NCBI GenBank assembly: GCA_028691385.1
Contig: JAQUZL010000003.1
Location: forward strand, 1-40,920
Direction: 5' to 3'
DNA: 40,920 nucleotides
Source of the DNA: Oscillospiraceae bacterium
GTDB lineage: Bacteria; Bacillota; Clostridia; Oscillospirales; Oscillospiraceae
The position numbers were made by a program, and so were the translations under genes. This document shows, piece after piece, positions 14,264 through 32,875 of this stretch (positions within the stretch are counted from its first letter, which is position 1; each line of letters starts with the position of its first letter). Below the pieces are notes generated by a model that was given only the letters and a program-made list of their open reading frames with translations, did no database searches and was not told where the DNA came from.

Positions 14264-14497
14264 TTTGCAATCTTTCCTCTCTGTATTGTGTCCTTTACGA
14301 CTTACGAAGATCATTTTCGCGCATAAGGATCTTCGCGCTGGATTTGCAAGGAACAGATCCGATTCCGAAACGATTTCGGTGGGTACGTTCTGATGGGAAC
14401 ACAAATAAATGCAATGGGCAGATGATATGCTGTAATTCGATTTTTGCAGGATTGCCGGGTTTCGGAGAATCAAACAAATTCAACCATATAAAACAAA

Positions 14498-14521
14498 GCC
14501 ATACAGGCACTCCTGTATGGC
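14498..14521 (-). terminator. Hairpin followed by TTTGTTTT on the minus strand
   Basis: Perfect 10-bp stem gccatacagg-cact-cctgtatggc; T-rich tract downstream on the minus strand. Confidence 0.75.
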
Positions 14522-14790
14522 CATTGCTGCACATCATTGGGTTTGCGCAAGCTCATACATGATGCCAATCTACAGCTCTATTATACTATTACCTCGCTGA
14601 AAATACCAGATGATTTGGACGATATATTTCACGTCAACGCAAGGGATTGTCTGTCCGGAAAAGCGGATTTCCCTGCTGGGAGAAAATAGCAATCGAATCG
14701 CATCCCATATGCCGCACAATCAGAAAATAGCCATTGGGTTGACCGCTCGCCGTCAACCGAATTTGCCCCGTGCGGGAATGACGCCGCAGC

Positions 14791-14922
14791 TCACGTTTTC
14801 AATATTTTTTCAGCCGCCAGCTGTAACGCGTCAATATATTGCTGAAAGATGCCGATTTCCGGATGTGCCTCCAAAAATGTGGCCAGCCCTCTGAGCCGTT
14901 CGCTAATTTCTGCATTTGACAT
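14791..14922 (-). CDS. 43-aa small ORF downstream of the DUF739-like regulator
   Basis: MSNAEISERLRGLATFLEAHPEIGIFQQYIDALQLAAEKILKT; preceded by AGAAAGGGATGG. Shorter than the ORF-track cutoff. Confidence 0.5.
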   Translation of the reverse strand: MSNAEISERLRGLATFLEAHPEIGIFQQYIDALQLAAEKILKT

Positions 14923-14986
14923 GGTTTCCATCCCTTTCTGTTCCATTTTCCGCGACCGCATCTCCGCGCCATTGTAAAGCGAATTC

Positions 14987-15205
14987 TTATTTGCCTGCCA
15001 ATGTAAAAAAATACACCTGAATGTCGCGATCGTTGATCTTCAGCAGCTTACAGGATCTCATAATCTCGGACTGATTGAATGCGGACGCGCCGCAGAGCTT
15101 CTGTGATAAAGCGCGTTCAGAAAGTCCGATTGCGGCAGCAAACTGCATCTGCGTTCCAAACACTTTCGTAATCTTGCAGAGCAGTTTATCGTACTCATAG
15201 ATCAT
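14987..15205 (-). CDS. DUF739-like / Cro-type small HTH regulator
   Basis: MIYEYDKLLCKITKVFGTQMQFAAAIGLSERALSQKLCGASAFNQSEIMRSCKLLKINDRDIQVYFF; HTH text FAAAIGLSERALSQKL. AGGAGG RBS upstream. Confidence 0.75.
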   Translation of the reverse strand: MIYEYDKLLCKITKVFGTQMQFAAAIGLSERALSQKLCGASAFNQSEIMRSCKLLKINDRDIQVYFFTLAGK

Positions 15206-15236
15206 TGAGAGGTCCTCCTTGCGTGAACTGTTAGAG

Positions 15237-15259
15237 TTAGTTCAATATAATTGAACTAA
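15237..15259. promoter_or_regulatory. Operator O1: perfect 10+3+10 palindrome
   Basis: TTAGTTCAAT-ATA-ATTGAACTAA. Confidence 0.75.
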
Positions 15260-15267
15260 TTGCCGCT

Positions 15268-15296
15268 ATTATACTACAAGAATTTCCATATTTCAA
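15268..15296 (-). promoter_or_regulatory. Promoter of the DUF739-like gene
   Basis: Minus strand TTGAAA (15296-15291), 17 bp, TATAAT (15273-15268). O1 lies over the expected start site. Confidence 0.65.
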
Positions 15297-15299
15297 CCT

Positions 15300-15322
15300 T
15301 TTGTTCATTTCAGTTGAACTTG
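15300..15322. promoter_or_regulatory. Operator O2, same geometry as O1
   Basis: TTTGTTCATTTCAGTTGAACTTG: GTTCA and TGAAC half-sites 12 bp apart start to start, exactly as in O1. Confidence 0.6.
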
Positions 15323-15342
15323 CGGCGGATTCGTATTATAAT
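15314..15342 (+). promoter_or_regulatory. Promoter of the XRE gene
   Basis: TTGAAC (15314-15319), 17 bp, TATAAT (15337-15342). The -35 is inside O2. Confidence 0.7.
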
Positions 15343-15367
15343 GACCTCATTTGAAGGAGGATTCAAT

Positions 15368-15745
15368 ATGAAGCGTTATACAACCGCGCAGCGACTGAAA
15401 CAAATCATGGCGCAGCGTGGCCTGCGGCAGGTGGATATTCTGCGTGCTGCCGCGCCATATTGCAATGAACTGGGCTGCTCACTCAAGAAAAATGCAATCA
15501 GTCAATACGTTTCCGGCAAGGTAGAACCAAGGCAGGACAAGCTGACAATTCTCGGTCTGGCGCTTGGGGTGTCTGAGGCCTGGCTCATGGGATACGATGT
15601 GCCGATCGAGTGTGAGACGGAATTTTCGGAGGATGATGACCGGCGGAAAAAGGAAGTGCTCCGCCTGTTTCGTCTGCTTTCGCACGCGGAGCAGGTGCGC
15701 TTGCTGCGCACCTTGCAAGAATGGCTTGAGCAGGAGCTGCGGTGA
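15368..15745 (+). CDS. XRE-family transcriptional regulator
   Basis: MKRYTTAQRLKQIMAQRGLRQVDILRAAAPYC...LKKNAISQYVSGKVEPRQDKLTILGLALGVSEAWLMGYDVP; GAAGGAGG RBS upstream of 15368. Confidence 0.9.
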   Translation: MKRYTTAQRLKQIMAQRGLRQVDILRAAAPYCNELGCSLKKNAISQYVSGKVEPRQDKLTILGLALGVSEAWLMGYDVPIECETEFSEDDDRRKKEVLRLFRLLSHAEQVRLLRTLQEWLEQELR

Positions 15746-15870
15746 TCACACACAACGGATCACGCCGCGTCTTTTTTGATCTGCCGCAGGACGCGGCGTT
15801 TGCCGTGGAATATGCCCGGATGGGCGCGACGGTGGGCGTGCTTTTTCGAAACAGGAACAATTACTGGTAA
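15742..15870 (+). CDS. 42-aa small ORF (GTG start) overlapping the XRE stop codon
   Basis: GTGA overlap with the XRE stop, AGGAG 6 nt upstream. Reads (M)ITHNGSRRVFFDLPQDAAFAVEYARMGATVGVLFRNRNNYW*. Confidence 0.5.
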   Translation: MITHNGSRRVFFDLPQDAAFAVEYARMGATVGVLFRNRNNYW

Positions 15871-15882
15871 GATAAAAAACGG

Positions 15883-15908
15883 AATGCCCGGCACGAGAGC
15901 CGGGCATT
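15883..15908. terminator. Bidirectional terminator hairpin between the XRE unit and the convergent permease gene
   Basis: aatgcccggc-acgaga-gccgggcatt; on the minus strand followed by CCGTTTTTT. Confidence 0.75.
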
Positions 15909-16004: not shown

Positions 16005-17111
16005 TTACCAGTTCCCAAGCAGTCGTTCCAGCGCCAGCAGCAGCGTGAGAAAGAGAAAATTGAAGCAGGAAAACGTGACTAGATACTGCGCGGTACGGCC
16101 GGTTTTGCTGAATAGTCGCAAGGAAATCAGGCTGGCCATGGAGGCAATGGGCGTGCCAAGACCGCCAATGTTGGTTCCGAGCACAAGCCCCGCGCCGTCC
16201 GCAGTAAAGCCGGAAAGCATCAGCGCCGCTGGGACATTGCTGATGAGCTGGGACGACAGCGCGGCAACCGGCAGCGCACGGCCACCGATGCAGGCGCAGA
16301 GCGCGCTGCGCACGGCGTCCATTCGGGCCAGATTGCCCACAAACACGAACAGGCACACAAAGGTCAAAAGAAGGCTCACATCCACGTGATGAAAGGCACG
16401 GCGCTGATTGGGCAGAAGCGCCGCACAGACGATGCCCAGCACAAGCCGGTAGGACACAAGATGCAGCACGCAGGCCACGCAGAGCAGAAACAGCGCGGCC
16501 GTGGTGAAAAGCTTCGGCTTGGACAGCGGTGCGCGCGCTGCCGCCGCGCATGGCGCAATACGATCGGGCGAAACAAACAGCAGCGTACTGGCGGTTGTGA
16601 GTGCCAGACCTGCGGCCACAATGGGCGCAGTGAGCCGCACAAACGTCAGAATCGGCAAGCCATAGTAGCCCGCGAGGTAGAGATTCTGCGGGTTTCCGAC
16701 CGGCGTCAGCGCGCTGCCGAGATTTGCCGCGATGGTCTGCATGACGACCACAAGCAGCATTGCGCGTGGCTGCTCCCGCAGCGCGGCGATGGCCAGCGGC
16801 ACAAAGGTGATCAGTGCCACATCGTTGGTAATCAGCATGGCGCAAAAAAATGGCAGCAGCACCAAAACCAGCGCCGCCGTGCGCAAATTCCCGGTACGGC
16901 GCAGCAAAATTTCGCACAGCCGGACAAAGACGCCCTGCTCCTTGGCGCTGCCAACCACAGCCATCAGGCAAAACAGCAGCACCAGAACCCGCACGTCCAA
17001 ATAGGCCGCATAGGCGCGATCCGGCGGCACCCAGATCATGGAGCTGAGCGCCAGCAGCGCGCTGCACAGCAAAACGGCTTCCTTTTTCAGTTGTTCCAGA
17101 CATGTTTTCAT
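16005..17111 (-). CDS. SLC13/ArsB-like anion permease
   Basis: Polytopic, with LLPFFCAMLITNDVALITFVPLA and ANLGSALTPVGNPQNLYLAG motifs; start MKTCLEQLKK at 17111. Confidence 0.75.
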   Translation of the reverse strand: MKTCLEQLKKEAVLLCSALLALSSMIWVPPDRAYAAYLDVRVLVLLFCLMAVVGSAKEQGVFVRLCEILLRRTGNLRTAALVLVLLPFFCAMLITNDVALITFVPLAIAALREQPRAMLLVVVMQTIAANLGSALTPVGNPQNLYLAGYYGLPILTFVRLTAPIVAAGLALTTASTLLFVSPDRIAPCAAAARAPLSKPKLFTTAALFLLCVACVLHLVSYRLVLGIVCAALLPNQRRAFHHVDVSLLLTFVCLFVFVGNLARMDAVRSALCACIGGRALPVAALSSQLISNVPAALMLSGFTADGAGLVLGTNIGGLGTPIASMASLISLRLFSKTGRTAQYLVTFSCFNFLFLTLLLALERLLGNW

Positions 17112-17139
17112 ACGCACGGCGCTCCTTATTTTGAACGGC

Positions 17140-17177
17140 GCAGCAAAACGCCTGCCTAGCGGCAGGCGTTTTGCTGC
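17140..17177 (-). terminator. Terminator of the che operon
   Basis: Perfect 17-bp stem gcagcaaaacgcctgcc-tagc-ggcaggcgttttgctgc just past the last che gene. Confidence 0.7.
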
Positions 17178-17193
17178 ATCTGGACGAATTGGG

Positions 17194-17634
17194 TCAATCT
17201 GACATAAGCAGCGCGTCCAAAGTGGCATCCGGGTCGAGCACAAAAATGGCGGGATCGCCGCGCATGACGCGGCTGAGCTTCAGGCGTCCCTGCTCCATGA
17301 TGGAGGCGTCATAGGCCACATAGTCACCAGAGTCGGTGAGAATTTGCTCGGCGCTGTCAGCTGCGAAGCAGACCAGCGATTCCTGACACCGGCAAATGAC
17401 ACCGATGGCGTCTTGCGCATTGTCCGCGCCGCTCAGCGCGCCCAGGGACAATACGGGAATGATGCTGCCCTTGTAGGCGGTGATGCCCAGCAGATAGGGG
17501 GACTGCCGAGGCAGACGCGTCAAAGCGGGCAGGGGCAGAATTTCTGCGATTTGCTCGGCGGGAAGGCCATAGCTGGCGGCACCTTCGCGAAGCTCTAAAA
17601 TCAGTTCACCGACGGCTGCTTTCGACATGACCAT
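17194..17634 (-). CDS. cheW: Chemotaxis coupling protein CheW
   Basis: LREGAASYGLPAEQIAEILPLPALTRLPRQSPYLLGITAYKGSIIPVLSL. Confidence 0.85.
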   Translation of the reverse strand: MVMSKAAVGELILELREGAASYGLPAEQIAEILPLPALTRLPRQSPYLLGITAYKGSIIPVLSLGALSGADNAQDAIGVICRCQESLVCFAADSAEQILTDSGDYVAYDASIMEQGRLKLSRVMRGDPAIFVLDPDATLDALLMSD

Positions 17635-31921: not shown

Positions 31922-32875
31922 TTACTCGTCACAACGGAAGCACGAAACAAAGTGATTCGGTTCGACCTCTTTGAGCGTGGGATCGCACTGGCGGCAATGG
32001 TCGGTTGCATAGCGGCAGCGGCTTGCAAACCGGCATTCTGCCGGCGGGTCGATGGGCGAGGTGATTTCTCCGCGCATTAAAATATGCTCCTTCCGGTCGT
32101 GGAGACTGGGCACCGGAATGGCTGAGAGCAGCGCCTGGGTATAGGGGTGAATCGGGTTGTGGAAGAGCACCTCGGCCGGCGCTTTTTCCACGACCTGCCC
32201 CAGATACATGACCATGATGTCGTCGGAAATGTGATAGACAACGCTGAGGTCATGGGTGATGAACAGATAGGTCAGGTGATATTGCGCCTGCAGCTCCTGC
32301 ATCAAATTGAGAATCTGCGCCTGAATGGACACGTCCAGCGCGGAAACCGGCTCGTCGCAGACGATGAACTTGGGGTTCAGCGCCAGCGCACGCGCCACGC
32401 CGATGCGCTGGCGGCGGCCGCCGTCCAGCTCGTGGGGATAGGCGTTATACAGCCGCCGGGCAAGGCCGACCGTATCCATCAGTTCGGCCACTTTTTTCTC
32501 GCGGCTTGCTTTGTCCGGACACAGCTGATACAGCCGCAGCGGCTCTTCGATGGTTTGGCTGATGGTCATGCGGGGATTGAGCGACGAAAACGGATCCTGA
32601 AAGATCATCTGCATCTCCCGACGCTTTTTCCAAAGCTGCTGACGGCTCAACGCGCTGACGTTTTCACCATCAAAGAAAATTTTTCCGTCCGTTGGCTCCT
32701 GCAGGCGGATGAGGGTGCGGCCGAGGGTGGACTTGCCGCAGCCGGACTCCCCGACAACGCCAAGGGTTTTGCCCGCTTCGATGGTGAAGCTGACGTCGTC
32801 CACGGCGTGCACAACGCCCTTGGCGGCCTTGAAGTACTTTTTCAGGTGCTCCACGCGAATCAGTTCGTTAGACAT
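31922..32875 (-). CDS. Oligopeptide/dipeptide ABC transporter ATP-binding protein (OppF/DppF type)
   Basis: GVVGESGCGKSTLGRTLIRLQEPTDGKIFF...QMIFQDPFSSLNPRM...DEPVSALDVSIQAQILNLM; start [15 protein letters not shown] at 32875. Confidence 0.95.
   Translation of the reverse strand: MSNELIRVEHLKKYFKAAKGVVHAVDDVSFTIEAGKTLGVVGESGCGKSTLGRTLIRLQEPTDGKIFFDGENVSALSRQQLWKKRREMQMIFQDPFSSLNPRMTISQTIEEPLRLYQLCPDKASREKKVAELMDTVGLARRLYNAYPHELDGGRRQRIGVARALALNPKFIVCDEPVSALDVSIQAQILNLMQELQAQYHLTYLFITHDLSVVYHISDDIMVMYLGQVVEKAPAEVLFHNPIHPYTQALLSAIPVPSLHDRKEHILMRGEITSPIDPPAECRFASRCRYATDHCRQCDPTLKEVEPNHFVSCFRCDE

Follow-up and report, generated by a model that had tools for sequence, protein, structure and literature searches.

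The window analysed here, a stretch of 40,920 nucleotides, is one (C67) of the 119 contigs in the draft genome G000, which totals 1.63 Mb and is 80.6% complete. At positions 14498-15908, in the middle of the contig and with host-type genes on both sides, lies a module of ~1.4 kb that contains two divergent helix-turn-helix (HTH) genes. The 162 bp between these genes are AT-rich (36% GC) and carry two near-consensus promoters, found by a consensus scan, and two perfect palindromes. The features of the locus are the following.

14497..14522, - strand: intrinsic terminator that ends the transcript on the mor side before a UDP-sugar dehydrogenase gene
14791..14922, - strand: 43-aa open frame downstream of mor, lengthened to 56 aa if read from the ATG at 14961; gene status unproven
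14973..14998, no strand: place at which related switches carry the operator OD; reads GCGAATTCTTATTTGCC, with no operator-like sequence
14987..15205, - strand: mor-like antirepressor gene (DUF739), 72 aa, identified by Pfam and phmmer
15239..15257, no strand: operator OL, perfect palindrome AGTTCAATATAATTGAACT (GTTCA-N7-TGAAC at 15240-15256), just downstream of the mor promoter, in place and geometry as TP901-1 OL
15268..15296, - strand: predicted promoter PL of mor, TTGAAA-17-TATAAT (consensus scan)
15303..15319, no strand: operator OR, perfect palindrome GTTCATTTCAGTTGAAC (GTTCA-N7-TGAAC), 63 bp from OL
15314..15342, + strand: predicted promoter PR of cI, TTGAAC-17-TATAAT (consensus scan), its -35 hexamer in the right half of OR
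15368..15745, + strand: cI-like repressor gene, 125 aa, with the ribosome-binding site AAGGAGG, identified by phmmer, tblastn and alignment
15742..15870, + strand: open frame of 42 aa whose GTG start overlaps the cI stop; gene status unproven
15883..15908, - strand: intrinsic terminator facing the transporter gene, not cI; T-run on the - strand only
16005-17243, - strand: CitMHS-type transporter gene facing cI, identified in a Pfam scan of the module's neighbours

The regulatory pair

The first-pass annotation of this DNA, made by reading the sequence, described two small divergent HTH genes of the XRE and DUF739 families. Both are real: one encodes 125 aa on the + strand and the other 72 aa on the - strand, the latter matching Pfam DUF739 at E=7e-20. 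The likeness to a lysogeny switch noted at that stage is also borne out and can now be made specific. In phmmer comparisons with the PDB sequences of the TP901-1 (Lactococcus phage) regulators, the cI product matches CI at E=1e-21 over the N-terminal domain, and the mor product matches MOR at E=4e-13. The tblastn matches of cI include TP901-1, ul36, phi31 and others, temperate phages of Lactococcus, Streptococcus, Staphylococcus and Enterococcus. Because both proteins match their TP901-1 counterparts, the pair is, as judged from sequence, a CI/MOR pair of the TP901-1 type and not a generic XRE pair. The residues of the CI:MOR contact are kept in the alignments. CI retains Q56, E70 and M74 (TP901-1 Gln55, Glu69 and Met73), with Y76 in the place of Phe75; MOR retains Y3, Y5, K36 and F67, with the aromatic F43 where TP901-1 has Trp.

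The cI product consists of the DNA-binding domain of TP901-1 CI and a short C-terminal stretch that aligns with CTD1; it has neither CTD2 nor a peptidase domain. At 125 aa, against 180 aa for TP901-1 CI, it ends close to the end point of TP901-1 CI-delta58. This derivative, cut after residue 122, binds DNA and gives no repression when mor is present (PMC4941734). Does the window's CI share this defect? The closest phage relatives naturally encode a CI of 124-126 aa; the short form therefore gives no sign of damage, and the truncation argument from TP901-1 may not apply to this CI.

The closest relatives of the window's switch are six loci in Oscillospiraceae/Clostridia and viral contigs (L089, L009, L090, L092, L093 and L010). 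Their CI is likewise short (124 aa) and 51-59% identical to that of the window; their MOR is ~42-55% identical. The OL/OR pair is present in all of them except L093. Two contigs labelled Candidatus Saccharibacteria (L013) and Ruminococcus (L012) have an identical CI tail and identical neighbouring ORFs, so that one of these bins may be contaminated.

Operators and promoters

Operators had been proposed between the two genes, and two perfect palindromes, at 15240-15256 and 15303-15319, are indeed found there. Besides the two regulator families, the divergent layout and the contact residues, the window shares the dimensions of the TP901-1 switch: the intergenic regions measure 162 and 168 bp, respectively, and OL and OR are spaced by 63 and 64 bp. 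The operators have the same GTTCA-N7-TGAAC type of geometry; OR of TP901-1 has one deviation, whereas both operators of the window are perfect. Such a palindrome pair, spaced 56-69 bp, is carried by 63 of 102 distinct CI/MOR intergenic regions; when homologous intergenic regions were shuffled, none of the 5,100 shuffled sequences had one. The switch of the Staphylococcus aureus phage phi13, which has CI and MOR homologues, uses the same type of half-site, with the published consensus AGTTCAYR (PMC8516035). It differs in having three operators, including OD, and a CI with a lambda-type peptidase domain, neither of which is found in the window (PMC8516035).

Between OL and the mor start, at 15222-15229 of the window, there is a single operator half-site, TGAACT, which reads AGTTCACG on the opposite strand. 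The intergenic regions of L057, from a genome labelled Alphaproteobacteria, and L144 contain a tighter palindrome, GTTCAATCTTGAAC, with N4 spacing.

Absent and altered sites

The window and 62 other CI/MOR switches with an OL/OR pair (63 in all) formed the set in which the remaining regulatory sites were compared. The window lacks the third operator, OD, which 61 of the 63 carry at the distal end of mor. Among the 20 rows listed, OD lies 225-227 nt to the left of the mor start in every one but that of the window; in a limited look at the literature we found no published survey of a fixed OD position. A search of 14700-15200 returned, as best matches, sites at 14881 and 15115 with three mismatches each, and the 3' end of mor diverges from its relatives just at the place expected for OD.

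The site pattern at the cI promoter is also unusual. TP901-1 relies on its OM sites for the cI-off state that depends on MOR: when OM1, OM2 or OM3 is mutated, the 20-fold repression of PR that depends on MOR drops to 2-, 8- or 3-fold, respectively (PMC7250872). The OM sites are weak motifs that vary among relatives. OM1 of the window, with four mismatches, is the worst of the 63; OM2 has two mismatches, as in seven others, and OM3 has three, OM3 being poor in many switches. The composite operator OM1-OM2-OR-OM3 is thus not found at the window's cI promoter.

Among the 61 switches with a PR call, the window alone has the -35 hexamer of PR inside OR (offset -6); in the other 60 it lies 6-18 nt beyond OR. 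The closest relatives with an OL/OR pair differ from the window on both counts, having OD and a PR -35 located 16-17 nt beyond OR. TP901-1, too, lacks this overlap and has OD and good OM1 and OM2 sites. Since several close relatives hold TTGAAC in the right half of OR and again at the PR -35, 21-23 bp apart, the fused OR/PR could have arisen by deletion between the two repeats. A search for further examples of such a fusion, between OR and a consensus PR, gave 74 viral pattern matches, one of them near a CI/MOR pair, where it lay at the mor end and not at PR.

Surroundings of the switch

The module had been read as a symmetric cassette, each HTH gene being followed by an ORF of roughly 43 codons and a hairpin terminator, standing alone between polysaccharide and chemosensory loci. 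The left terminator does serve the mor transcript. The right hairpin has its T-run on the - strand only and therefore terminates transcription from the facing transporter gene, not from cI; because it belongs to that gene, the module is not truly symmetric. Likewise, the module does lie between the two loci, with the transporter gene separating it from the chemosensory cluster. No RNA families were found. In relatives, the best transporter homologues are ~50% identical, there being no close genome among those compared, and no dehydrogenase homologue was found in their flanks. The draft genome contains a second UDP-sugar dehydrogenase gene (contig C37, 5823-7010), 63% identical to the one adjoining the module.

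The small open frames exist (43 and 42 aa), and their status as genes is unproven. The first-pass annotation had staked its cassette on their conservation; searches of 300 family genomes for each frame, of 176 homologous loci and of phage records gave no convincing relative of either, which rules them out as conserved partners and makes the symmetry partly illusory. The 56-aa form, which was also compared with viral contigs, has no convincing relative there; a frame of a single viral contig has a short motif, LRxxAxFLEAHPEI, in common with it, to which we give little weight because a similar motif occurs in unrelated sugar-enzyme-like frames. Weak matches of the 42-aa frame in relatives include a recurrent frame that, by eye, seems to be antisense to a zinc-ribbon gene. 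For both small frames, codon usage does not discriminate gene from non-gene. Other switches also have ORFs adjoining mor, different from that of the window.

The remark that no phage genes surround the module holds. Reading the window's ORF list by eye, we saw no phage genes, and so none of the integrase, replication or structural genes that would mark a prophage beside the switch; the Pfam scan covered the module and its two neighbours. An open frame resembling an IS200/IS605 transposase, again by eye only, is located near the contig end (40364-40783). No match to the large terminase was obtained in the genome, an 80% complete draft. Its recombinases lie off the module: one serine recombinase on another contig and four tyrosine-recombinase matches, two of them with internal stops. 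Relatives of the pair, by contrast, belong to temperate phages and in most cases have an integrase nearby: a survey with seven recombinase queries, which may miss other integrase types, detected one ≤4.5 kb downstream of cI in 82 of 101 determinable homologous pairs. Four of the six closest relatives (L089, L009, L092 and L010) have a recombinase gene on the cI side; the window does not, and unlike TP901-1 it has no excisionase, integrase or other phage gene. The viral contigs gave no match to a parent phage with the same operator pair.

No regulon is apparent. Of the five occurrences of the operator pattern in the genome, two belong to the switch and three lie within apparent genes, with ~1.6 occurrences expected from base counts. 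Outside the switch, the window has one single-mismatch palindrome (32248) and otherwise two-mismatch matches at chance level.

Discussion

We think it probable that the module is the immunity core of a temperate phage, stranded when the prophage was lost and simplified towards a self-repressing, CI-on state; it would then not be a live bistable regulator. The rest of the prophage would have been deleted, leaving a TP901-1-type CI/MOR switch in the chromosome. CI dimers would bind OL and OR, shutting the mor promoter. At OR, CI would also restrain its own promoter, because the -35 hexamer of PR lies within that operator. MOR could probably still bind CI, given that the contact residues are kept. 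The CI:MOR complex, however, would no longer be able to hold cI off. With OM1/OM2 and OD not recognisable, the likely outcome is a self-limited CI-on state instead of a heritable two-state switch; the most that it would confer is immunity to phages that share the operator.

Some of the evidence could be turned against this reading. The OM motifs are weak and variable among relatives, and the short CI of the closest phage relatives takes force from the truncation argument. Intact frames and perfect operators could fit a recent loss of the phage or a retained function of another kind, and the remainder of the phage could sit on a contig missing from the ~80% complete draft. The same intactness bears on whether the module is simply inert prophage debris, its genes intact through recent loss with no selection. 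This is the alternative we take most seriously, though we consider it unlikely. It would account for the missing OD and the lack of good OM1/OM2 sites, for a mor 3' end that diverges where OD is expected, and for the lack of visible phage genes and of detectable target sites elsewhere in the genome; it sits less well with full-length cI and mor genes that keep their contact residues, with two perfect operators, and with promoters and ribosome-binding sites near consensus. Somewhat less probable still is a minimal immunity cassette kept by the host, in which a self-limiting CI would make the cell permanently immune to phages with the same operators and MOR would be kept as a brake.

Could the switch still be bistable? 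A minimal TP901-1 fragment of <1 kb toggles alone, as does a 1.3 kb fragment of phi13 (PMC8516035), and the window likewise has both genes, an OL/OR pair with matching spacing and a conserved CI:MOR interface. Yet OD and OM1 are absent, OM2 and OM3 are poor and PR overlaps OR; the OM sites matter for the cI-off state of TP901-1 (PMC7250872), and we regard retained bistability as improbable. We place in the same low range a technical loss, in which the prophage was split over contigs or the draft contig was mis-joined. The fragmented, incomplete assembly leaves room for this, and the compared genomes include no close relative in which the join could be seen; the module is nonetheless in mid-contig between host-type genes, and the missing OD at the mor end implies that the DNA left of mor is already unlike that of the phage relatives. 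A domesticated regulator making a phase-like decision over the neighbouring polysaccharide or chemosensory genes, as first suggested, is very improbable. Position between those loci is the one point in its favour. Against it, a terminator precedes the dehydrogenase gene on the left, a facing gene with its own terminator lies on the right, operator matches in the window beyond the switch are at chance level save the palindrome at 32248, those in the genome are near chance and inside genes, and OM1/OM2 and OD are missing.

If the module is a stranded immunity core, it illustrates what becomes of a CI/MOR switch after phage loss: two proteins and two operators survive, and the sites for the opposite state are gone. 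It would also provide a clean natural experiment for the published model, according to which the OM sites help to keep cI off. If selection maintains the module, it would represent a superinfection-immunity element of very small size.

The wider family shows variation of its own. The distance from OR to the PR -35 is bimodal, 6-8 nt in 26 switches and 15-18 nt in 33, as if two operator layouts existed. The intergenic region is long (~290 bp) in L050 and in the viral loci L129 and L134. Three Oceanobacillus loci (L047, L050 and L051) have CI/MOR pairs with no integrase detected; the first two of these have another small gene after cI, and their genes on the mor side look phage-like by eye.
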